Shown here: in pieces, positions 3,788 through 32,888 of the stretch
Numbering within the stretch: position 1 is the first letter of the stretch
Layout: every line of letters begins with the position of its first letter
NCBI GenBank assembly: GCA_027036775.1
Contig: JALWDS010000014.1
Coordinates: 1-40,594, forward strand
Source of the DNA: Archaeoglobaceae archaeon
Lineage (GTDB): Archaea > Halobacteriota > Archaeoglobi > Archaeoglobales > Archaeoglobaceae
Reading direction: 5' to 3'
Length of the DNA: 40,594 nucleotides
Made by a program: the position numbers and the translations under genes
Notes under the pieces: model-generated
Databases searched by the model: none
What the model was told of the DNA's origin: nothing
Seen by the model: only the letters and a program-made list of their open reading frames with translations

Positions 3788-4444
3788 ATGAACGTCGACG
3801 ATCTCCTCGACGTCCTCGGAAACGAGAGTAGAAGGAGGATATTGTATCTGCTCTCTCAGAGACCCTGCTACGTCAGCGAGATAGCGTATCGTCTAAAGAT
3901 GGCTCCGAAAGTCGTTTTAGAGCACCTGGATAAACTCGAAAGGGTTGGGTTAGTCAAAAGCTTTGAAGAGGGAAAGAGGAGATACTACTACATCGATAGG
4001 AGCCTGAGGTTGGAGGTAACCTTAACTCCACACAACTTCTCCGCCAAGTTGATAGAGAACGGCAACGTGGACGAAAAGGACATATACGATGTGATAAGAA
4101 ACATAGATGAGGTGAAATACATAGACGGTTTGAGAGATTTGTCCGACACCATACGCAGGATGAAGAGAATGCAGGACGTTCTATCCAAGTTGCAGTATAG
4201 GATAAATTCGAAGATCACGAAGATGCTCGAAGACCTCATTGCAACTTTGGAGAAGTTCACGAGGGACGACGTTGAAAAGATAGTTCTCTACGGCTTGATA
4301 AAGGGATTGAGCGTATTCGAAATAGCGGATTACTTCGGTTTGATGTATTCCGATGTGGAATCCGCCCTGAGGAGGTTGGAAAGTAGGGGTTTGGTTGAGA
4401 GGTTTATCGAAAACGGTAGGGTCGTTTGGAGGTTTAGGGGGTGA
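3788..4444 (+). CDS. hsr1: heat-shock regulator HSR1-like, ArsR-type winged helix
   Basis: DNA-binding regulator of 218 aa. The first winged helix covers about residues 1-75 ([13 protein letters not shown], then [20 protein letters not shown] and the wing [10 protein letters not shown]). A charged, probably coiled-coil linker follows at about 110-155 ([16 protein letters not shown]), and a second HTH lies at the C-terminus ([24 protein letters not shown]). This architecture and the gene order regulator-cdc48-hsp20 match the HSR1 operon of A. fulgidus. A GTG is in frame at 3779, but ATG 3788 has GGTGA at 3778-3782 with five bases of spacing. The stop codon overlaps the cdc48 ATG (TGATG at 4442-4446), implying translational coupling. 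The operator at 3749-3763 suggests autoregulation. Confidence 0.88.
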
Positions 4445-7400
4445 TGTTTGTGGACGAAAAGAAGGAGGTCTATCTTAGGGTTGCTGAAGCGTATTACAGG
4501 GATGTCGGTAGGGGTATCGCGAGGATAGATCCCGAGGTGATGGAGAAGCTTGGATTGCAGAGCGGAGACGTGATAGAGATCGTGGGTAAGGAAAGAGTTC
4601 CAGCCATAGTTTGGCCCGGTTACCCCGAAGATAGGGGGAAGGGTATCATAAGGATAGACGGTAGCATAAGGAACAACGCTGGAGTTGGAATAGGAGACAG
4701 GGTCAAAATAAGAAAGGTTGAAGCGAAACCCGCTGAAAGAATAGTTTTGGCCCCTACGGAGCCCGTCAGGTTGATGGGTGGTGAAGCATATCTACTGAGG
4801 CTCTTGGAGGGAAGGCCCGTAAAGAGGGGTCAGAAGATAAGGGTCGAGGTCTTCGGTCACGTCCTGACGTTCGTCATAGTTTCTACGAAGCCTACCGGTG
4901 TCGTGATAGTCAACAGAAACACGGAGATAGAGCTCAAGGAGAAGCCAGTTGAAGAGGTGAAGAGAAACGTTCCGAACGTAACCTACGAGGACATAGGTGG
5001 ATTGAAGAGGGAGCTTAGGTTGGTCAGAGAGATGATAGAGCTACCTCTCAAGCATCCAGAACTCTTCCAGCGCTTGGGAATAGAACCTCCTAAAGGTGTT
5101 CTGTTATATGGCCCACCGGGAACAGGTAAAACCCTTATCGCTAAAGCCGTCGCAAACGAGGTTGACGCTCACTTCATACCCGTCAGCGGGCCGGAGATAA
5201 TGAGCAAGTATTACGGAGAGAGCGAACAGAGGTTGAGGGAGATATTTGAGGAGGCGAAGGAGAACGCACCTTCTATAATATTCTTTGACGAGATAGATGC
5301 CATTGCACCGAGAAGGGAAGAGGTGACTGGAGAAGTTGAAAGGAGGGTCGTGGCACAGCTTTTGGCTTTGATGGACGGTTTAGAGGCGAGGGGAGACGTC
5401 ATAGTCATAGGAGCAACGAACAGACCAGACGCGATAGACCCAGCTTTGAGGAGACCGGGAAGGTTCGACAGAGAGATAGAAATAGGAGTGCCAGACAGAG
5501 AGGGAAGAAAGGAGATTCTACAAATTCACACGAGGGGAATGCCCATAGAACCCGATTACAACAGGAACGACGTCCTAAAGGTCTTGAGGAAGATGAAGGA
5601 GGAGGGTAAGAAGGTTGACAAGTTCATAGAGAAGGTTGAAAAGGCTACAAGCGAGGAGGAGATCAAGGAGATTTTGAAGGAGGACGAGGAGCTGTTCAAC
5701 GAGGTCAGGAACAGGTTGATCGACCTTATGCTTGAGGAGTTGGCAGATCTGACGGTAGGATTCGTCGGTGCGGACTTGGCGGCTTTGGCTAAGGAGGCAG
5801 CTATGCACGCCTTGAGGAAGAGGATAGAGAGCGGTGAGATAGACGTTGAAGCTGAGGAGATTCCAGAGGAGGTTCTCGAAAACCTCAAGGTCACGAGAGA
5901 AGACTTCTTGGAGGCGTTGAAGTTCATAGAGCCTTCCGCGATGAGAGAAGTGCTTGTTGAAATTCCTAAGGTCACTTGGGATGACGTCGGTGGCCTGGAG
6001 CATGCGAAGCAAGAACTTAGAGAGGCTATAGAATGGCCCTTGAAGTATCCGGACATATACAGGGCTACGGGCATAAAGCCACCTAAGGGTATCCTGCTCT
6101 ACGGGCCACCGGGAACGGGTAAGACTCTCTTAGCTAAGGCTGTTGCAAACGAAGCTAATGCGAACTTCATAAGCGTTAAAGGGCCAGAGCTTTTAAGCAA
6201 GTGGGTCGGCGAATCGATAACGGGTGACGAGAGAGTAGTTGCAAAGGTAAACGGGGTTGTGAAGGTTGTGGAAGTTGAAAAGCTTTACGAGGAGTGGTTG
6301 AAGGGCAACGACATAGAGGTCGTTTCGGTAGTTGACGGAAAGGTTAGGTGGTCTAAGATAGAGAGGATATCGAAGCATCTCAGAAGGTCTCCGATCGTCG
6401 AGATCGTAACGAACTCTGGTAGAAGCGTAAAGGTTACAACAGATCACTCGATATTCACCGTTAAAAACGGTAAGATCGTTTCAGTTCCAACTTCGGAGCT
6501 AAGGAGGGGTGACTGGATAGTTCTCGTGAACAGAGTTCCGTGCGGTGACAGCGATGAGATAGACGGCGTTAAGGTAAACGAGAATGTAGCACTGCTCTTA
6601 GGTCTTTACGTTGCGGAAGGAGACGTTAATCACAACTGTGTTAGGATTCATACGAAATCGAGAGAGATAGTTGAAACTTTGGATAGGATAGTGAGAGAAG
6701 AAGGTTTAGAAGGCAAGTATTATGAAAGAGATTGCTCTTATTGGATAAAGACGAAGTGGATCGTTGACTTATGTAAGAAGTTCGGAGTCGGTGCAAGGAA
6801 CAAGACGATAGAACCTGCACTATCTCTGAGAAAAGATCTGTTGGCCAAATTGCTTAAAGGTTACTTCTCTGGAGACGGAACGTTCTACCTCAGAGATCAC
6901 GAGAGAACCGCATCAATTGAAGCGGTAACTGTAAGCGAGAAACTTGCACACGAACTGCTGATAACTCTATCGATGTTCGGTATATTTGCAAAGCTAAAGA
7001 GCAGGGCCAACACAGTCGGTAACAACGAATACAGAGTGATAATTGGTAGAGCGGAACAGCTAAGGACGTTCGTTGAGGAGATAGGATTCGTCCAAAAGGA
7101 GAAGAACGAAAAGTTGAGGAAGTTCGTCGAAAGCAAGAAGTGGACGAGAGGTAAGAAGGACATACCATCGGAGTTGGTGGGACAGGTTTACGCACACATG
7201 GAGGTCGAGTTCTACTCCGACAGAGTTGTTCTCAAGGCTTTGAAGAGGTTGTCCTTGGATGACGTTTACTTCGACAGAATAAAGGAAATCAGATACGTTG
7301 ATAGAGATGATGTCTTCGTTTACGACGTTGTAGAGGTTAAGGAGGGACACAACTTCCTCAGCGGTTGTGGAATCTTGCTACACAACTCCGAAAGACATGT

Positions 7401-8121
7401 GAGAGAGATGTTCAGAAAGGCAAAGCAGGTTGCACCGTGCATACTCTTCTTCGACGAAATAGACGCCTTGGCCCCAAGGAGGGGATTGGGTGCAGATACT
7501 CACGTCACCGAAAGAGTTGTCAGTCAGCTCTTAACGGAGTTGGACGGTATAGAGGAGTTGAGGGACGTTTTCGTCATAGCCGCGACTAACAGACCAGACA
7601 TGATAGACCCAGCTTTGCTCAGGCCGGGAAGGATTGAGAGGCACATATACATCCCACCGCCAGACAAGGAGGGTAGAAAGGAGATATTCAAAATACACCT
7701 GAAAGGAAAGCCTTTGGCTTACGAAAGAGAAGACGTCGTGAAGGCTCTCGAAATTTTGAAGTCTGAAAACAAGGAGTTCGAGAAGGTCAAGGTCGAGGAC
7801 GTCGACAAGCTACCTGAAGAGCTGAGAAGGGTATTCGAAGAGAAGGTCAGGGATGTAATTTGCGAGTGGCTGGCTGAGAGAACGGAAGGCTACACGGGTG
7901 CGGACATAGAGGCGATATGCAGGGAGGCGGGTATGCTCGCGATAAGAGAGGCGGTAAAGCCCGGTATGACTAAGGAAGAAGCTAAAGAGATCGCGAAGAG
8001 GATTAGGATAACCAAGGAGCACTTGAAGAAGGCGATCGAAAGAATTAAGCCAAGTTTAACCAAAGATGACTTGAAGAGGTATGAGGAGATAATGGAGACG
8101 TTCAGGAAGATGTATGCTTAA
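4444..8121 (+). CDS. cdc48: Cdc48/p97 (VAT-like) AAA+ ATPase precursor containing an intein
   Basis: Double-ring AAA+ unfoldase, in archaea a partner of the 20S proteasome. Order: Cdc48 N domain (residues about 1-180), D1 with Walker A GPPGTGKT near 223 and Walker [11 protein letters not shown]2 with Walker A GPPGTGKT near 554 and, after the intein, Walker [15 protein letters not shown]. The intein (6214-7386) interrupts D2 after SKWVGE and its removal restores [13 protein letters not shown]. The spliced protein would be about 834 aa, longer than many homologues, because each AAA domain carries a charged insertion before the TVGFVGADL / TEGYTGADI segments (DNA about 5551-5740 and 7720-7870). 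The last residues are KMYA, a hydrophobic-Tyr-X end like the proteasome-docking motif. The start overlaps the regulator's stop. It is the second gene of the heat-shock operon. Confidence 0.95.
6214..7386 (+). mobile_element. Cdc48 D2 intein with LAGLIDADG endonuclease domain (391 aa)
   Basis: The first residue is Ser (SITGDERVV), the last two are His-Asn (GCGILLHN) and the +1 extein residue is Ser, so this is an S1...HN/S intein. Block B is seen as [10 protein letters not shown]. The two endonuclease motifs are [10 protein letters not shown] (about 6598) and [11 protein letters not shown] (about 6850), both keeping their acidic residue, so the endonuclease may be active. The downstream splicing region is [19 protein letters not shown]. 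Codon use (AAC, AAG, AGG/AGA) is like the host gene, suggesting long residence. The insertion point lies about 37 residues after the D2 Walker A in a highly conserved stretch, the usual site choice for inteins. Confidence 0.93.
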
Positions 8122-8687: not shown

Positions 8688-8730
8688 GGCTGGCAAAAAT
8701 TTTATTAATTTCGTTCGGCAAACTTAGGCA

Positions 8731-9591
8731 ATGAGTATGAGGGTTAAGACTGGTATCTACGGTCTCGATCCTCTGCTTGGAGGGGGATTTTTACCCAACA
8801 CCGTCAATGTCGTTTTGGGGACAACAGGAGTGGGTAAAACCCTCTTCTCTCTCCATTACGCCTTCGAAGGCTTAAAGAACGGGGAGAACTGCCTATACAT
8901 ATCCTTCGACATGAACGAGAACGAGATACTGAAAACCGCGAGGAGCATGGGGTGGGATGTCGATAAATACGTTAACGAAGGCTCTTTAAAGGTCCGCAAG
9001 TTCGTGGTGGAAGACATAACGTTCCTCAACAACGAGCTACTGAGCTTCATATTCAACAACGTCTCTGGCAGAACGAGGATAGTTATCGACTCGTTCACGC
9101 CCCTCGTTTCGACTCACGACTACTCGGTGAGGAAGGACGTTAACTGGTTCTTCGAAAGGTTGAGAGAAGTTGGAACTACCGTTATAACGCTTGAAGAGCC
9201 TTTATCTGGAAACATAGATTACCCCCACATCCTCATGCCCGTATTTTTAGGGGACAGCCTGATTCACATGAAAAAGCTCGGTTACGGGGACGTTTTGGAT
9301 AGGATAATCAGAATTCTCAAGCACAGAAACTCTTGGCATGCTGAAGGCGTTTTCCCCTACAAGATACTGAAGGGCTTGGGAATCGTAGTTGACAGCAAAA
9401 ACTACGTTGAGAGGTTGGAGAGAAAGGTCGAATTGAGAGAGGTCTTGAGCGATGAAGAGATAGAAAACCTGCCCGAAGAACTCTTGGAGAGAATAAAATT
9501 GGCCCTCGAAGATAACGTTTACAACGAGAGAGAGGTCGTTTCTTTGGTAAAGTGGGTGATCGAATGTTATCTGTCCTCGAATCGATCGTAA
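8731..9591 (+). CDS. KaiC/RadA-like RecA-fold ATPase
   Basis: Single-domain KaiC-like protein of 286 aa. TGIYGLDPLLGGGF is the typical KaiC/RadA entry, Walker A is GTTGVGKT (residues 30-37) and Walker B is RIVID (116-120) followed by SFTPL. The paired catalytic glutamates of KaiC (FEE context) are replaced by FDMN at about 59-62, which may mean weak hydrolysis. The C-terminal 60 residues are charged and helical. A TATA-like TTTATTAA near 8700 fits a leaderless ATG at 8731. The 3' end overlaps the next gene by 28 nt, and that gene overlaps the third by 1 nt, so the three genes look co-translated. Archaeal proteins of this kind are often signalling ATPases. The role here is unknown. Confidence 0.8.
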   Translation: MSMRVKTGIYGLDPLLGGGFLPNTVNVVLGTTGVGKTLFSLHYAFEGLKNGENCLYISFDMNENEILKTARSMGWDVDKYVNEGSLKVRKFVVEDITFLNNELLSFIFNNVSGRTRIVIDSFTPLVSTHDYSVRKDVNWFFERLREVGTTVITLEEPLSGNIDYPHILMPVFLGDSLIHMKKLGYGDVLDRIIRILKHRNSWHAEGVFPYKILKGLGIVVDSKNYVERLERKVELREVLSDEEIENLPEELLERIKLALEDNVYNEREVVSLVKWVIECYLSSNRS

Positions 9592-9899
9592 ACCACTTCG
9601 AAGACCCGGACGTTTATCTCGTTGGGATTTTCAGGGTTGACGGAATACCTATAGTGGTTAGGTGCAGGGAGAAGGAGAGGGTGCTTAAAATTGCGGAATG
9701 GTTGGATAGGCATGTTAAGGAGTTTCTGGACAAGATGCTCAAAGGGGAGTTGGAGGACGTGACGACCAGGTTTAAAAACATGTTGGTTAGGGTTTACCCC
9801 CTGACTAAAACCCTCTCCCTCGTTTTGGTGAGTAGCGAGGACATTTCGATCTACAAGTTCGAAATAGATATAACCTCCATAAGGAACATGTTGGGGTAA
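9564..9899 (+). CDS. roadblock/LC7-like small protein (tentative)
   Basis: A protein of 111 aa that I assign only tentatively. The pattern VYLVGIFRVDGIPIVVRC is a beta-hairpin carrying the V-DG-P signature of roadblock/LC7 domains, followed by a long helix (ERVLKIAEWLDRHVKEFLDKML), two strands (NMLVRVYPL, LSLVLVSS) and a final helix (DITSIRNML). Roadblock proteins in archaea usually act with small GTPases or ATPases, and here the upstream neighbour is a KaiC-like ATPase. ATG 9564 is chosen over GTG 9552 because GGTGAT lies just upstream (9555-9560). The gene starts inside the KaiC-like gene and its stop TAA shares one base with the next ATG (TAATG), so it is the middle member of a coupled trio. 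Confidence 0.6.
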   Translation: MLSVLESIVNHFEDPDVYLVGIFRVDGIPIVVRCREKERVLKIAEWLDRHVKEFLDKMLKGELEDVTTRFKNMLVRVYPLTKTLSLVLVSSEDISIYKFEIDITSIRNMLG

Positions 9900-11230
9900 T
9901 GATTCAATACGTTTACACGACCTTCACGAACTACGACGAGATTTTGAGGGATTTGGAGGAGAAGTTGAAGCTCGACTTTGAACCTGAGTTTTACTTCCTC
10001 TTTCTAACCGAAAGCACGTGGAAGCTCTACAAGAAGATTTTGAAGTTCCTCAAATCCAAGTTTCCGAACTGCAAGATGTCAGGGTGCATAGTTGAGGGCT
10101 ACGTAACGAGGGAAGGAATATGGACGAGGGGGTTGGCACTTCTCTTCTTCGAGAGGGGTGTTGACGTATTCTGGGCTAAGGGTAAAACAGCTGAGGAGAC
10201 CTTTGCGAAGCTCAAGGAGAGCATGAAGGATTGGACCTCCGCAATAACCATCTTTCCCCTCTTCAAATTTAAAAGCGGAATCGACTTGATAAACTTCACA
10301 CTGTCGAACAACACCGTTTGGAGGTTCAGATACTGGAAAGCGAGGGATAGGGAGTCGAAAATTAGAGTTTTGGAGAGATATTCAAGGGTTTTGGAGGAGA
10401 GATACGTTTTTCCTGCGAACAAGGCCCTGAGGGTTTTTGATGGAGAAAGGCCAGTTGTTGGCCTGAACTTGCTCCCCTTGGAGGCTGGATACGAAACCCC
10501 CCTGATATTTGCAAACTACGAGGTTTTGGAGAGGTCCGCGGTTGCGGTGTGCCTAAAGGGTAAAACGAACGTAAATTTTCACGACGTTTTCCCTGAGAGG
10601 GGTAAGAGTTTTGAAGAGACGGCGGAGATAATTAAAAATCACTTCACGAGCGTGAGGGAGGTAGAGGTTACGAAAAGGGGAGTTGCCGTAGGCGACGTCA
10701 ACGGAATTCCCGCGGTCGAGTTTCTCAGGAGGGTCAGATACGTAAGGGTTTACGATGAGAAAGAGGTTTTGAACATGCTCGAAAGGGGAAAGCTCAGAAC
10801 GGTTTCACCCTACGCTTTGGCCTTCGTAAGTGAGGAAACGCACGGCTCTTCCCTCCTCGGAATCCTGCCGTATCCCATACTCACGTATCCATCCCTCTTC
10901 GAACTCGATGGGTTCTACGATAGGGCATTCTTCGTCGGAGAGAGGTTTAAAGGAGGAATAAAGGCTTTTAAGAGTCTCTTCGAATCCAAGAGGTTTGAAG
11001 ACTCCTTCGACTTCTTCGTCATAGACGCCAACGTTATACCGATGTTTGCGGGGAGGTGTGCAGAAATAAAGAAATTTGCGGACGAATTCTGCGGTGATTA
11101 CTTCGGAATAATATCGTCAATGCCCTCTATCAAAACGAAAAACCTGCATAAGAGATACTTCTCAGAAATAGAGGTGGGTCTCTGCCTCAACGTAACGGGA
11201 ACTTCGGTAATGGTGGAGTTAAGGTGTTGA
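9899..11230 (+). CDS. FIST-domain-like putative sensor protein
   Basis: Soluble protein of 443 aa with no signal peptide or membrane segment. The N-terminal part has the FIST_N-like signature MSGCIVEGYVTREGIWTRGLALLFF, corresponding to the GCSTAGEI...v.v..f pattern, followed by a helix and TSAITIFPLF. The C-terminal half contains VPFR-type strands and FEDSFDFFVIDANVIPMFAG...GDYFGIISSM, which could be FIST_C. FIST domains are thought to bind small ligands in signal-transduction proteins. Here the protein stands alone, without kinase or methyl-accepting parts, translationally coupled to the roadblock-like and KaiC-like genes. Its 3' end overlaps the convergent ubiA gene by 44 nt. The family call is moderate. 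A profile search would settle it. Confidence 0.55.
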   Translation: MIQYVYTTFTNYDEILRDLEEKLKLDFEPEFYFLFLTESTWKLYKKILKFLKSKFPNCKMSGCIVEGYVTREGIWTRGLALLFFERGVDVFWAKGKTAEETFAKLKESMKDWTSAITIFPLFKFKSGIDLINFTLSNNTVWRFRYWKARDRESKIRVLERYSRVLEERYVFPANKALRVFDGERPVVGLNLLPLEAGYETPLIFANYEVLERSAVAVCLKGKTNVNFHDVFPERGKSFEETAEIIKNHFTSVREVEVTKRGVAVGDVNGIPAVEFLRRVRYVRVYDEKEVLNMLERGKLRTVSPYALAFVSEETHGSSLLGILPYPILTYPSLFELDGFYDRAFFVGERFKGGIKAFKSLFESKRFEDSFDFFVIDANVIPMFAGRCAEIKKFADEFCGDYFGIISSMPSIKTKNLHKRYFSEIEVGLCLNVTGTSVMVELRC

Positions 11231-12377: not shown

Positions 12378-12683
12378 TTAAGCGTATTCCCTCCAAGTTT
12401 TACCGCATTTCGTGCAACGGTAGAACCTCGTTTCTGGTTCATCCGCAGCTCTCATCTGCCTTATCCACCAATAAGCTTCTGTGTTTCCGCAGTAGGGACA
12501 AACGACCTTGGTTTTAGGTAGAGTTTCGACCTTCTCCTCTATGACTGGTATGTCGTTACCGCTCCTCTTGGACTCTATTACGAACTCCCTCTTTTCGCTT
12601 TCCTCCTCGTATCCGCACTTCCTGCAGACGAACTTCCCTCCCTTCATTATCATAAAGCTCCCGCACTTCGGACAGAACTTCAA
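12378..12683 (-). CDS. tfs: transcription elongation/cleavage factor TFS
   Basis: Archaeal homologue of TFIIS/Rpb9, which rescues backtracked RNA polymerase by stimulating transcript cleavage. 101 aa with an N-terminal zinc ribbon (CPKCG...CRKCGYEE), a linker, and a C-terminal ribbon (CPYCGNTEAYWW...YRCTKCGKTWREY) carrying the catalytic acidic pair in RAADEPETRF. The start codon is TTG at 12683, supported by GGAGGTGG at 12688-12695 with four bases of spacing. No ATG exists upstream of the first zinc ribbon. It lies 47 nt downstream of the Nudix gene in the same orientation. Confidence 0.95.
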   Translation of the reverse strand: MKFCPKCGSFMIMKGGKFVCRKCGYEEESEKREFVIESKRSGNDIPVIEEKVETLPKTKVVCPYCGNTEAYWWIRQMRAADEPETRFYRCTKCGKTWREYA

Positions 12684-12730
12684 GTAACCACCTCCGCAGG
12701 TTGGAAACTACGACGACCCTATTAAAAACC

Positions 12731-13138
12731 TTACCCAAGTAGTTCTATCAGGTAGGGTTTAGCGTCTTCAACCATCTTTTCGTGATCGAATGCGAGTTTC
12801 GGTAAGGAATCGAGTTTGAAAACACCCACATCTTTGGCGTCGCTCCCAGCTTTGAGTTTCCCACCCTTTGGTAAAGCGATAAAGCAGATAGAAACGAAGT
12901 GCCCCCTCGGATCCCTATTCGGATCGGAGTAAACTCCGACGATCTTGTAAGGTTCAACAATTAGGCCAGTCTCTTCTTTAACCTCTCTGATCAGAGCGGA
13001 TTCGACCCTTTCACCGTATTCAACTATTCCTCCCGGTAGGGCGTAGCGATCCTTGAATGGCTCGTTCCTCCTCTTAACCAAGACGATTCCACCCTTGTAT
13101 GGTATTATGGCATCTACCGTTAGTGTTATGCACCTCAT
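12731..13138 (-). CDS. Nudix hydrolase, ADP-ribose pyrophosphatase-like
   Basis: Nudix protein of 135 aa. The full Nudix box G-x5-E-x7-REV-x-EE-x-GL is present (GGIVEYGERVESALIREV, then KEETGL). Upstream is PYKGGIVLVKRRNEPFKDRYALPGG, as in archaeal ADP-ribose pyrophosphatases, and FVSICFIALPKGGKL follows. The exact substrate is not determined by the motif. ATG 13138 lies 5 nt after the thiE stop. A TTG at 13147 that overlaps the thiE stop is an alternative start and the Shine-Dalgarno is weak for both, so coupling to thiE translation is likely. Order on this strand is thiE, nudix, tfs. Confidence 0.88.
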   Translation of the reverse strand: MRCITLTVDAIIPYKGGIVLVKRRNEPFKDRYALPGGIVEYGERVESALIREVKEETGLIVEPYKIVGVYSDPNRDPRGHFVSICFIALPKGGKLKAGSDAKDVGVFKLDSLPKLAFDHEKMVEDAKPYLIELLG

Positions 13139-13143
13139 GAGAT

Positions 13144-13758
13144 TCAATCGCCCAAATACCTTTTAACGATTTCCAGCAACCTCCTTGCAGACTCCGTTGG
13201 ATTTTCGGAATTTGCGATTGCGGATATAACAGCAACACCGCTAACACCTGTTTTCAAAACCTCCTCGATGTTGGATTCGTTTATCCCCCCTATCGCAACT
13301 ACTGGTTTACTTACTGCCGAAACTATCCTTTTCAAACCTTCGATTCCTATCGGTTCCCTCGCATCCCTCTTAGTTTTAGTTTTGAAAACGGGGCCAGCAC
13401 TTACGTAATCAGCATACATTTCAGCTCTCTTAGCCTCTTCAACGTTGTGGGTTGAAACTCCCACTATTCCGTCGAAAATATCCCTCACGATCTCGTAAGG
13501 GAAATCGTCCTGACCCAAGTGAACGCCGTCGGCATCCACAGCTAAAGCCAAGTCAACCCTGTCGTTCACAACGAACCTCGCGGAGTATTCCCGAGTTAAA
13601 ATTCTAAGCCTTTTGGCGATTTCATACATATCCCTGCAACTCATCCTCTTCTCCCTGAACTGAACAAACCTTACACCCGCCTTTAAAACCATCTCAGCCA
13701 ACTCTACATGCCTTTTACCGAACTCAGAAGTCGTTATAAAGTATAGACCGATTTTCAT
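13144..13758 (-). CDS. thiE: thiamine-phosphate synthase
   Basis: Joins HMP-pyrophosphate and thiazole phosphate to make thiamine phosphate. 204 aa TIM barrel. Conserved parts are YFITTSEF at the start, VQFREKRMSCRDMYEIAKRL, FVVNDRVDLALAVDADGVHLGQDD (pyrophosphate/Mg site), VGVSTHNVEEA, DYVSAGPVFKTKTKRDA and VVAIGGINESNIEEVLKTGVSGVAVISAI. A TTG at 13776 is in frame, but ATG 13758 is better placed against the conserved start of the fold. It is divergent from the DUF22-like gene across 51 bp. No thiamine riboswitch is visible in that gap, which is too short for one. Confidence 0.92.
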   Translation of the reverse strand: MKIGLYFITTSEFGKRHVELAEMVLKAGVRFVQFREKRMSCRDMYEIAKRLRILTREYSARFVVNDRVDLALAVDADGVHLGQDDFPYEIVRDIFDGIVGVSTHNVEEAKRAEMYADYVSAGPVFKTKTKRDAREPIGIEGLKRIVSAVSKPVVAIGGINESNIEEVLKTGVSGVAVISAIANSENPTESARRLLEIVKRYLGD

Positions 13759-13809
13759 GTTCTCATTCAGAGGCAAAAGATCATATAGTTTTTTGACTAA
13801 AGAATAGTT

Positions 13810-26120: not shown

Positions 26121-27593
26121 ATGGATAGAAAGCTGATATTCAGAATTTTCATAGTGGCTCTCGCAATCCTTTTGAGGTTTTACGATTTGGGAAAGGCTCC
26201 ACTGTTTTTCGACGAGAGCGTTCACACCGTTTTCGTTGACGACGTTTTGAATTGGAAATACAGTTACGATCCCGCTTTCCACGGCCCCCTCCTCTTCTAC
26301 CTAACCGCCTGTGTAGTCAGCTTGTTTGGTAAGAGCGAGTTCACTTACAGAATAGTCCCAGCTCTTTTCGGTGTTTTAACCGTTCTACTCCTCTTCAAGT
26401 TTGAGAGGTTTGTGGGGGAGAGGGGAGCAAACTACTCCGCTCTGCTCGTTGCGGTATCTCCAATCATAGTCAACTACTCAAGGTTCTTCAGGAACGACAG
26501 TCAAATTCTGTTCTTCACGTTGGCTTTCGTTTACTTCACCTTCAGCTACCTTAAAGACAAAAGGTGGTATCAGCTCCTGCTGGCATCAGTTTCTCTATCA
26601 CTCTTCGCCTGCTCGAAGGAGAACTTCTACCCCATCGCGTTCCTCATGCTGATATACTTCGCCTTCGACTTCAGGAAGTTCAGGTTGAAAGACTTGGCTT
26701 TGGCCGTTCTGGCATTCCTCATCATATACGTTGCCGTTTATTCGAACTTCTTCACGAACCTCAAGCCTTTCACGAGCTTCAACGATCTGCCTATCGTGAG
26801 GGCGATAGAGTATTGGAAGCACCAGCACGAAATAGCGAGGATCGGTGGGCCTTGGTGGTATTACATACCCCTCCTACTTCTCTACGACCTCCCCGTTTTC
26901 TTCATCGGTATATACACTGTTGCCAAGTGGATTTACGGAAAGGAGAACGACTTCAAGGCCTTTCTGATATACTGGTTTTTGATGAGCTTGACTTTCTACT
27001 CCTACGTTCAGGAGAAGGTTCCGTGGCTCACGGTTCACATAGAGTTACCTCTCTACGTCATCGCGGGAGTTGGTTTGAGCGAAGTTCGAAACGACCTCCG
27101 CAGACGTATTCTGTTGATCCTAACGTTCGCCTTCCTTCTTTACTCGTGCGTCAATCTCAACATAGTAAATCCGACGAATCCGGCGGAGCCAGCTTTGTAT
27201 CTACCGACGTGCATGGACGTTAAGGACTTTGGAAGGGAAATGAGGAGTATGAACGCAACCGTGTGCGTTTTCATGTCCCCCGGTGACTACTGGCCACTAC
27301 CCTGCTACCTCAAGGGAGTCAAAACATACTACTTCTCAAGCTTGAAGGGATTTGAGAGTTCCGTAAGGTATTACGGGTGCAACGTGATCGTGGCGAATCA
27401 AACCAACGCAAAGGTTATTGAGGGTAAAATTCACTACAAGAAAAAATTTGAAGTTTGCATCAGGAGTTGGACTTCTTACACATACGAGAGTCTGAATCCC
27501 GTTAGAATTTTAGAGTTTCTGATATTTAGAAGACCGATGGGCACGGTCAACTACTTCAACCACACCGTGTTCCTGACCTCCTCCCCACCCTAA
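26121..27593 (+). CDS. Agl23-like membrane glycosyltransferase (GT39/PMT_2-like)
   Basis: Polytopic membrane protein, 490 aa, with about ten hydrophobic segments and a C-terminal soluble part. The N-terminal loop ILLRFYDLGKAPLFFDESVHTVFVDDVL carries the catalytic-type Asp-Glu of dolichyl-phosphate-sugar transferases, followed by DPAFHGPLLFYLT, as in the archaeal family named flippase activity-associated protein Agl23. It probably moves a sugar from a lipid carrier outside the membrane, perhaps in N-glycosylation (inference). The last codons (TSSPP) and the stop lie inside the first hairpin of the IS605-like remnant that starts near 27579, so the natural C-terminus may have been replaced. TATA-like AAAATATT at 26091-26098 may give it its own promoter. 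Confidence 0.8.
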   Translation: MDRKLIFRIFIVALAILLRFYDLGKAPLFFDESVHTVFVDDVLNWKYSYDPAFHGPLLFYLTACVVSLFGKSEFTYRIVPALFGVLTVLLLFKFERFVGERGANYSALLVAVSPIIVNYSRFFRNDSQILFFTLAFVYFTFSYLKDKRWYQLLLASVSLSLFACSKENFYPIAFLMLIYFAFDFRKFRLKDLALAVLAFLIIYVAVYSNFFTNLKPFTSFNDLPIVRAIEYWKHQHEIARIGGPWWYYIPLLLLYDLPVFFIGIYTVAKWIYGKENDFKAFLIYWFLMSLTFYSYVQEKVPWLTVHIELPLYVIAGVGLSEVRNDLRRRILLILTFAFLLYSCVNLNIVNPTNPAEPALYLPTCMDVKDFGREMRSMNATVCVFMSPGDYWPLPCYLKGVKTYYFSSLKGFESSVRYYGCNVIVANQTNAKVIEGKIHYKKKFEVCIRSWTSYTYESLNPVRILEFLIFRRPMGTVNYFNHTVFLTSSPP

Positions 27594-27780
27594 AGGGCGA
27601 GGGTTCCCCACAGGGGAACCGGCTCACGTCCGTCTCACGACGGCGTCATCGGCTTCGGTTGGTGTCATTGGGCCGGGTCAGAGCGACCCTCTAAGGAGGT
27701 ATGAAGATGGGGGAGAATAAAAACATTTCGGAAAGAGCGGGCTTTCCTCCCAGCCTTGAAAGGCGAGGCTTCCAGCCCGC
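27579..27780 (+). mobile_element. IS200/IS605-like structured remnant, possible omegaRNA-type sequence
   Basis: Two related hairpin ends bracket about 200 bp: copy A at 27579-27606 and copy B at 27746-27773. Both have the form CCTCCC..CCT..AAGG..CGAGG.TTCC, and the inner stems differ by a compensatory exchange (CCCT/AGGG in A, GCCT/AGGC in B). Copy B is enclosed by GCGGGCT/AGCCCGC (27738-27744 and 27774-27780). Between them are GGTTCCCC/GGGGAACC (27602-27620), CCGTC/GACGG (27630-27643) and GGGTC/GACCC (27675-27689). Such GC-rich ends are typical of archaeal IS605/IS1341 elements, whose right ends encode TnpB guide RNAs. No tnpA or tnpB remains. A tiny ORF with a Shine-Dalgarno (AGGAGGT, ATG 27707, stop 27796) is also present. 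Confidence 0.5.
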
Positions 27781-29046: not shown

Positions 29047-29299
29047 GGGGAGTGGCGGTGGGCGGCTGTCCGAGAGGAGGAAAGTCCCCCCACCGATAAA
29101 AGGCGGACCCCCGCAAGGGGGTGTGCCGAGAGGCACGGCAACGGCACAGAAACGATACCCGCTTGGGGAAACGCGAGGACGCCGAGAGGCCGAGGTCACC
29201 CAAGCGGGATGAAACGGCCGTCCCCGCCGGTGCAAGGCTGTAAGCCGCTTAGACCAATGCCGCCGAGAAACAGAAGGGGGCTTACTACCGCCACTCCCC
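29047..29299 (+). ncRNA. rnpB: RNase P RNA, archaeal
   Basis: Catalytic RNA that matures tRNA 5' ends. A perfect 13-bp P1 helix joins GGGGAGTGGCGGT (29047-29059) with ACCGCCACTCCCC (29287-29299). The universal element GAGGAAAGTCC is at 29077-29087, ACAGAAA at 29146-29152, AGACCAATGCCGCC near 29251 and the 3' element GGGGGCTTACT at 29276-29286. Several GC-rich stems with GNRA/GCAA-type loops (for example CCCCCGCAAGGGGG at 29108-29121) fill the body. Length (253 nt) is at the short side of archaeal type A RNAs. The last 15 nt are also the antisense 3' end of the epimerase gene. Confidence 0.95.
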
Positions 29300-30986: not shown

Positions 30987-32075
30987 GTGATTCGCGTAAT
31001 TCTTCTGTTCGGTGTAGTCAGCCTTCTCGGAGACCTCATATACGAGGGAGCGAGGAGCGTATACGGGCCCTTTTTCGACAGTCTCGGAGTCGATCCATTC
31101 CTCTTCGGAGTTGTCGTGGGCTTGGGGGAACTCCTTTCATACGGATTGAGACTATTTTCGGGATACGTCAGCGACAGGTTCAAGAGCTACTGGAGTTTGA
31201 CGATAGTCGGGTATCTTCTAACGGTTTCTATACCTTTGATGGGCTTCGCCAAAAGCTGGACAATCGCATCCATACTCCTTATAGTCGAGAGGGTTGGAAA
31301 GGGATTGAGGAGTCCCGCAAGGGACACCATACTGTCCTTCGTAACCAAGAAGTTAGGCAGGGGTTTCGGTTTCGGAATTCACGAGGCTTTGGATCAGTTC
31401 GGTGCGGTTTTGGGACCGATTGCCTTCTCGATTTTAACGGTTTACGGTTACGGTATTGCCTTCAAATCCACGTTCCTACCTTTCTTGGCTTTGATGGCCC
31501 TTCTCCTTTATTTAAGGTTCAAGCTACCCAATCCCGAGGTCGAAGAAGTTGGAAGGCAAAGCGCGGAGATTTTCAAGAGATTCGTCGTTTTCGTTTTTCT
31601 CTCCGGATTGGGATTCGTTAACTTCCCCTTATTAGCCTACCACTACTCGAAACGTCTAAGTCCCTCGGTCGTAGCCCTCTTCTACGCTTTGGCAATGGTC
31701 GTAGATGCGGTGTTCGCTCCTGTGATAGGAAAGGTTTACGATTCCACGGGTTTGAAATCGCTCGTCTTGATACCAATTTTAACCATGCTATCCTCCCTGA
31801 GCTTCTTAAACCCGATCGCATTGGTGTTCTTCGGATTGGCCGTGGCCATGCACGAAACGGTCATGAGAGCGGTGATTGCCGACTATGTCGGAGTTGAAAA
31901 GAGGAGTTTCTCCTACGGACTTTTCAACGCCTTTTACGGTCTCTCACTCTTTCTGAGCAGTTCCATAGTTGGATTTCTCTATCCAAACGTTTTGGCCGTA
32001 GTTGTGTTCGTTGCGATCGTCGAGACTTTGGGGACTTTATACGCCCTTAGTATGTTAAAAGATGGCTCCGAGTAG
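30987..32075 (+). CDS. major facilitator superfamily transporter
   Basis: 362-aa polytopic membrane protein with about 11-12 hydrophobic helices. The MFS loop 2-3 signature is present as GYVSDRFKSYWSLTIVGY, and VERVGKGLRSPARDTILSFV matches a subgroup of prokaryotic MFS proteins of unknown substrate. The GTG start at 30987 has no Shine-Dalgarno, but TTTAAAT at 30959-30965 is 25 nt upstream, consistent with a leaderless mRNA. The 3' end overlaps the convergent UbiA gene by 21 nt. Confidence 0.85.
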   Translation: MIRVILLFGVVSLLGDLIYEGARSVYGPFFDSLGVDPFLFGVVVGLGELLSYGLRLFSGYVSDRFKSYWSLTIVGYLLTVSIPLMGFAKSWTIASILLIVERVGKGLRSPARDTILSFVTKKLGRGFGFGIHEALDQFGAVLGPIAFSILTVYGYGIAFKSTFLPFLALMALLLYLRFKLPNPEVEEVGRQSAEIFKRFVVFVFLSGLGFVNFPLLAYHYSKRLSPSVVALFYALAMVVDAVFAPVIGKVYDSTGLKSLVLIPILTMLSSLSFLNPIALVFFGLAVAMHETVMRAVIADYVGVEKRSFSYGLFNAFYGLSLFLSSSIVGFLYPNVLAVVVFVAIVETLGTLYALSMLKDGSE

Positions 32076-32888
32076 GAATCCCAAGAGACCGAAGAGCATC
32101 GCAAGCAGAGTTACCTTTCTAAGTTCTCTTACGTCTCCAAATCTCAGAAGCTTAAAAACCGTTAACAAAAACAGGATATCCGCTAAAGCCACGGGGACTA
32201 TGTAAAACACGTCCACTCCGTAATGAACTAAGGGGATCGGGCTGAAAGCAACGGCTAAAAGGATAAGTAGGGCTGAGAGTTTGTATGCGAAATCGACACC
32301 CTTAACCCTTGCGACGCTCCTAACGTTTCTGAGTGAATCTCCCTCAACGTCCTCTATACCCTTCATAACCTCCCTTCCCAAGCCGGAGAGGAAGGCCAAA
32401 AAGGAAAGGACTGCAATTTGAACGTTCACACCGCACGATATGATACCTCCGAAGAGGAAGGGAGCACACATCGTGAAGGCTATGTAGACGTTACCGAGTA
32501 TTCCCGTCTCCTTAAGCTTTAGATCGTAGATGTAACCCAGAACGGTAATCGCAAGTGCGAAGACAAAAGCCTCTAAGGAGATCATGTATGCAAACAGAAA
32601 CCCAAAGGGAGACAGAACTAAAGTCAAGAGGAGTGCGTGAGACCTCTTTAGGTCACCCCTAACGAGAGGTCTGTCGAACCTTTCGTTCGCCAAATCCACC
32701 TCGTAGTCAACGTAATCGTTTAAAGCGAAGGATGAAGCTTGACAAAAGAGGGCGGTGAGGAATCCGAGGATGCCATCTTTTAGATTGGGACAACCTGAAA
32801 CGATCATACCGACTATTACCCCAACGCCATACATAAATCCGTGTTCAAGCCTCAGGAGTTCCCATACCGCCTTTATTCGTGAAATCAT
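32055..32888 (-). CDS. UbiA-family prenyltransferase, probably digeranylgeranylglyceryl phosphate synthase
   Basis: 277-aa membrane enzyme with about eight helices. The first Asp motif is ALNDYVDYEVDLANERFDRPLV and the second is GREVMKGIEDVEGDSLRNVRSVA, the arrangement seen in archaeal DGGGP synthases. These attach the second geranylgeranyl chain to make the ether-lipid core. The assignment within UbiA rests on the NDxxDxxxD-NERxxRPL pattern and size. It differs from the UbiA at 11187-12098. The minus-strand TATA-like AGTTTAAAA near 32913 suggests its own promoter. It is divergent from the LysE gene across 71 bp. Confidence 0.8.
   Translation of the reverse strand: MISRIKAVWELLRLEHGFMYGVGVIVGMIVSGCPNLKDGILGFLTALFCQASSFALNDYVDYEVDLANERFDRPLVRGDLKRSHALLLTLVLSPFGFLFAYMISLEAFVFALAITVLGYIYDLKLKETGILGNVYIAFTMCAPFLFGGIISCGVNVQIAVLSFLAFLSGLGREVMKGIEDVEGDSLRNVRSVARVKGVDFAYKLSALLILLAVAFSPIPLVHYGVDVFYIVPVALADILFLLTVFKLLRFGDVRELRKVTLLAMLFGLLGFLLGAIF

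Follow-up and report, generated by a model that had tools for sequence, protein, structure and literature searches.

The window (the whole stretch of DNA that we analyzed, 40,594 nucleotides long; contig C14 of a 1.53-Mb genome, G000) carries a cluster of four genes coding for a KaiC-like ATPase, a roadblock-like protein, a FIST protein, and a UbiA-type prenyltransferase, which we refer to as K, R, F, and U, respectively (Table 1). K, R, and F are three open frames on the forward strand, and their coordinates exactly confirmed an earlier description of overlapping or abutting genes (28 nt and 1 nt): R overlaps K by 28 nt when started at the ATG at 9564, which the ortholog alignment favors over the first possible start (GTG, 9552), and the stop codon of R (TAA, 9897-9899) and the start codon of F (ATG, 9899-9901) have one base in common. 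The TATA-like stretch is positioned approximately 25 bp upstream of the K start and, judged by its consensus, is a possible separate promoter for a K-R-F operon. U is encoded on the opposite strand and therefore lies outside this operon; it is convergent with F, and the 3' ends of the two genes overlap by 44 nt. K, R, and F may be produced in a fixed ratio, as that description proposed; the spacing between R and F, however, widens to 82-941 nt in several genomes, indicating that strict translational coupling is not universal, and in one genome F has a different place on the chromosome.

Table 1. Features of the window discussed in the text, in order of position.
Feature	Positions	Strand	Basis
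CDC48/VAT-like AAA ATPase frame, 1226 aa, with an apparent intein-like insert in the second AAA domain	4441-8121	+	
TATA-like stretch (tttattaatt)	8701-8710	+	Read directly; consensus only
K, KaiC/RecA-type ATPase of one domain plus a C-terminal extension, 286 aa	8731-9591	+	Pfam PF06745, residue conservation, closest solved relatives KaiC
R, roadblock/LC7-like protein, 111 aa from ATG	9564-9899	+	AlphaFold2 model, Foldseek, ortholog profile
F, FIST-domain protein, 443 aa	9899-11230	+	Pfam FIST_N, AlphaFold2 model, Foldseek
U, divergent UbiA-type membrane prenyltransferase, 303 aa	11187-12098	-	Pfam UbiA, Asp-rich motifs, F neighbor
TFS transcription factor, Nudix hydrolase, and ThiE-like genes, after U	12378-13776	-	
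HgcC RNA	27560-27691	-	Above Rfam gathering score
Archaeal RNase P RNA	29050-29296	+	Above Rfam gathering score
Second UbiA-family gene, higher-scoring than U	32055-32888	-	

K matched Pfam KaiC (PF06745) with 135.7 bits (curated cut-off: 26.6) and its closest solved relatives are KaiC, which bore out its description as a KaiC-like ATPase. It is distinct from circadian KaiC proper, with one domain vs. two in tandem and D or E then mostly M or L vs. EE pairs, and it scored 70.9 bits with NCBIfam circ_KaiC (cut-off: 546). Nor did K reach the cut-off of any named KaiC subfamily in NCBIfam (KaiC_arch_3: 118 vs. 249 bits). The motifs of K comprise a Walker A sequence (GTTGVGKT, including K36 and T37), D60 followed by M61, the Walker B residue D120, E155/E156, and K197/R199. 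Walker A and Walker B are intact, as K36, T37, and D120 were invariant in 40 of 40 orthologs; E155/E156 and K197/R199 were equally invariant. Since the ATPase residues other than the D60-M61 pair are unchanged throughout, K is probably an active ATPase.

R could be assigned as roadblock-like on the evidence of its predicted fold. The single sequence found no match in Pfam or NCBIfam and so falls outside Robl_LC7 (PF03259) membership, and a scan of the genome with the Pfam roadblock model PF03259 did not recognize it; 11 of 39 R orthologs matched Robl_LC7 weakly (best E 4e-4), and a profile built from the orthologs retrieved roadblock chains from the PDB (best E 3.5e-4). The AlphaFold2 model (pLDDT 84.7, pTM 0.76) displayed the order H-E-E-H-E-E-E-H, which is the order of the roadblock/LC7 fold (helix, two strands, helix, three strands, helix). 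Foldseek returned 103 PDB matches to this model at E<=1e-3, with MglC (7ct3) as the top match (E 8.2e-7) and MglB, archaeal roadblocks, and Ragulator/Rag domains among the others. The model and the ortholog profiles agree with the earlier note, which had called R roadblock-like. The sole Pfam-recognized roadblock protein of the genome adjoins a MinD/ParA-like ATPase on another contig (L183; G000:C18, 1426-2793).

F scored 28.5 bits with Pfam FIST_N (curated cut-off: 23.2), and 23 of 36 orthologs matched the same model at E<=0.01. FBXO22 (8ua3_C) was the sole PDB match at E<=1e-3 (E 5e-4, prob 0.99) when the AlphaFold2 model of F (pLDDT 89.4, pTM 0.90) was searched with Foldseek; the global TM of the pair is just 0.36, implying that the domain arrangement of F may differ. 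F carries no added output domain. The FIST assignment made previously was upheld by both lines of evidence; the role of ligand-binding sensor that went with it is suggested by analogy with the family, and F has no conserved His (no alignment column with His in at least 20 of 36 rows). Searching the genome collection with the single F sequence gave no match, and the whole-genome and alignment routes did recover F. In one genome F is found in two pieces (G001:C1 690391-691604; profile positions 62-446 and 2-49), indicating a split or frameshifted gene there, and another genome has two F genes in tandem (G013:C71 1589-2938 and 3054-4409).

U matched Pfam UbiA (PF01040) with 55.2 bits (cut-off: 34.2), and its Asp-rich motifs N59xxxD63xxxD67 and D189xxD192xxxD196 were invariant in 30 of 30 sequences. 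The equivalent residues of AfUbiA (4tq3-4tq6) have Mg/diphosphate roles (PMC4106721). Like this family, U has both Asp-rich motifs in addition to the Pfam match; its sequence, in contrast, has diverged strongly (phmmer E 0.023 against 4tq3), with an invariant His as the second residue of motif 1. By these sequence scores U is remote from every named UbiA subfamily, the best value against the NCBIfam DGGGP synthase, MenA, and chlorophyll synthase subfamilies being 30.4 bits (cut-off: 212).

We examined the distribution of the four genes in a sample of 393 genomes of the phylum, consisting of 59 Archaeoglobi (three families) and 334 others. Among the Archaeoglobi, K and R each occurred in 48 of 59 genomes, F in 47, and U in 44. 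Where K-R was found with no F or U match, the cluster is truncated by the end of its contig. Seven Archaeoglobi without R, each at least 90% complete (G021, G023, G045, G051-G054), were likewise devoid of F, U, and any close K; inheritance is all-or-none. Much of this co-occurrence within the class is due to shared ancestry. Outside the Archaeoglobi, strong R, strong F, and U matches were each obtained in the identical 6 of 334 genomes (G067, G076, G218, G336, G363, and G388; four families), in all of which the four genes lie next to, or almost next to, one another. Besides these, FIST matches outside the class were limited to weak ones in two genomes (G243, G386), and R matches to weak or partial ones in three (G258, G306, G387). 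Two identical six-genome sets would be expected by chance at approximately 10^-12, a value that ignores phylogeny, the genomes being not entirely independent. A recent transfer from Archaeoglobaceae to these six genomes was rejected, as in the F tree they do not fall within the Archaeoglobaceae branch; this placement indicates an ancient module or an exchange in the distant past.

Quantification of the spacing revealed a K-R gap of -28 to +23 nt in 24 of 25 loci, the 25th being a locus in a Geoglobus-like genome in which K is split into two frames by a frame change, with R, F, and U intact (L110; G026:C1 1639346-1640165). U was the 3'-to-3' neighbor of F in 25 of 25 genomes read (19 Archaeoglobi and 6 others). 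K-R and F-U are the two tightest links, and the K-R gaps together with the genome-wide co-occurrence indicate that the coupling of K, R, and F is not due to chance. The earlier note had named folds of R and F other than roadblock and FIST, or a neighborhood limited to this genome, as grounds against its proposal of a three-gene set; the folds agreed, and the neighborhood is conserved beyond this genome, with K and R present in 48 of 59 Archaeoglobi and all four genes clustered in six of 334 other genomes. What changed is the size of the set, which comprises four genes, with U as a constant convergent partner. Beyond K, R, F, and U, no other gene was constant in the cluster in the loci read.

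We tentatively favor, at somewhat less than an even chance, the reading that the four genes constitute a single conserved functional module, in which an ATPase switch, a roadblock protein, and a FIST sensor are tied to a prenylated membrane metabolite. F would be a soluble ligand-binding FIST protein and the likely input. R, a putative homodimer, would dock F onto the NTPase or regulate the NTPase, and K would be a ring ATPase of the RecA/KaiC type that acts as a switch or motor through its ATP state. U is predicted to be an active membrane prenyltransferase, with a product or substrate that would be the metabolite sensed by the module, or one whose synthesis the module would control. A physical complex of the proteins, the direction of signaling, the prenylated nature of the ligand, and an output through K are what we infer; no DNA-binding or receiver domain was recognized in K, R, F, or U. 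A narrower version, in which the dedicated UbiA enzyme of the module makes a prenylated membrane metabolite and the KaiC-type ATPase, with a roadblock dimer, reads it via a FIST receptor, as a self-contained make-sense-switch unit of a new archaeal signaling class, appears doubtful to us.

The emphasis may instead lie on the enzyme, with K and R acting as an ATP-driven chaperone or scaffold and F handling an aromatic or polar acceptor for U, so that a lineage-specific prenylated cofactor is made; we consider this biosynthetic reading rather unlikely. U is the sole recognizable enzyme besides K, its catalytic motifs are intact, its subfamily was absent from every sampled genome without K-R-F (393 genomes), and its link to F is one of the two tightest. 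The genome of the window encodes four UbiA homologs, of which U is the lowest-scoring and the other three are canonical, making U surplus to the usual roles. The weak resemblance of F to chorismatases in Foldseek would fit such a function, but it is not significant (prob 0.15). KaiC-like and roadblock proteins, moreover, are otherwise known as regulators and not as biosynthetic subunits, and the loci read share no further biosynthetic genes in the surroundings of the cluster.

It is also unlikely that U is an unrelated neighbor of a K-R-F signaling trio, retained through its 3' overlap with F. The two genes are convergent, and overlaps of 4-50 nt in most loci would make their separation costly; yet U stays beside F in three loci where they do not overlap and lie 27-203 nt apart (L106, L108, L163), indicating that overlap alone is not holding U in place. 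U also went with F in rearranged genomes: in G014, K-R and F-U are 1.27 Mb apart with both pairs intact, and in G218 the order is inverted (U> <F K> R>) and U still adjoins F. The absence of the U subfamily from genomes without K-R-F likewise argues against a bystander.

An altered acidic pair (FDMN) in K had been pointed out previously, and could be taken to mean that K is a catalytically dead scaffold with R and F as binding partners. The alteration is real, as the EE pair of KaiC is replaced by D60-M61, and it is conserved (position 60: D in 36 and E in 4; position 61: M in 30, L in 8, I in 1, and F in 1; 40 orthologs). It does not show, however, that the switch has been lost or is unusual: K of five listed genomes outside the Archaeoglobi carries EM, with Glu at position 60; most KaiC-like paralogs within the genome of the window also lack EE; and the remaining nucleotide-handling residues examined were invariant in all 40 orthologs. 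ATPases of the RecA superfamily like DnaB have one acid, then Met, at the position of the KaiC EE. Judged by the alignments, the pair is a lineage marker with a DnaB-like single acid and not the sign of a dead switch, and we regard a dead scaffold as very improbable. We give almost no credence to a heme/NO sensor with K replacing the histidine kinase, since, although NosP, too, is a FIST protein on its own and is encoded next to an ATP-using partner under its control (PMC12570481), F has no alignment column of conserved His and scored 10.9 bits with the NCBIfam NosP model (cut-off: 450), disfavoring a conserved-His heme mechanism.

Two more specific roles were considered and rejected. The distribution of MqnA/D (PF02621) does not track the module, which argues against a menaquinone-specific role: the module is present without MqnA/D in G067, G218, and G057, G076 also lacks it among the matches listed, and in family f7 MqnA/D is present and the module is absent. 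Anti-phage defense was set aside, as PADLOC gave no meaningful match, with one weak match of K to mads_8 in the P-loop region.

We compared the favored reading, that of a sensor and switch module with its own prenyltransferase, with known signaling systems. A role as hubs of signal transduction has been proposed for archaeal KaiC-like ATPases (Makarova, Galperin and Koonin 2017, as cited in PMC5847659 and PMC6393860). As far as the proposal is conveyed by those citations, K resembles such hubs in being a single-domain KaiC/RecA ATPase beside regulatory-type partners, and differs from them in its constant pairing with roadblock, FIST, and UbiA proteins, in having no sensor or receiver fusion, and in scoring below the named subfamily cut-offs. 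The conservons, or actinobacterial G-protein systems (CvnA-D with accessory CvnE/F), combine a P-loop NTPase switch, a roadblock protein, and a sensor or modulator in a conserved operon (PMC13343842), a logic which K-R-F resembles. The module is nevertheless not a conservon: there is no small Ras-like GTPase, CvnA-type histidine-kinase-like protein, or CvnC homolog in the cluster, the NTPase is KaiC-like, and a prenyltransferase is added. Similarly, R has the roadblock fold of the MglA-MglB-MglC polarity switch, being closest in Foldseek to MglC, whereas the cluster has no small GTPase. In NosP-NosK nitric-oxide sensing, a FIST protein serves as the auxiliary sensor of an ATP-using partner (PMC12570481); F, too, is a stand-alone FIST protein beside an ATP-using protein, which it would control by analogy, but it lacks the conserved His and its partner is KaiC-like rather than a histidine kinase.

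The searchable literature yielded no description of the K-R-F-U combination, of how far it extends, or of its all-or-none inheritance; an earlier mention of the neighborhood may exist elsewhere. The module is a new combination of parts from known families, and it looks like a signaling or control module that many related archaea have in common, and not a peculiarity of a single genome. To our knowledge, the input and output of most archaeal KaiC-like ATPases are unknown. Here, one KaiC-like subfamily is constantly accompanied by a regulator (roadblock), a potential receptor (FIST), and a potential metabolite enzyme (UbiA), so that input, switch, and chemistry become testable as a single unit. 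Such a unit would also give archaeal FIST and roadblock proteins a role without a kinase or a small GTPase.

The genes that flank the cluster vary between genera, with HSP20/CDC48 here, RadA in nine loci, and others elsewhere. The upstream HSP20/CDC48 genes were rejected as part of the module, as this arrangement was seen solely in the genome of the window and its congener G015; a CDC48/VAT-like frame of similar length to that of the window is present in this sister genome. TFS and Nudix genes were located near U in nine loci. In another locus (L161, 11151-13391), a second KaiC-like pair is followed by a gene that appears roadblock-like on visual inspection alone, and the genome carries the module as well; this arrangement suggests a recurrence of the KaiC-roadblock pairing.
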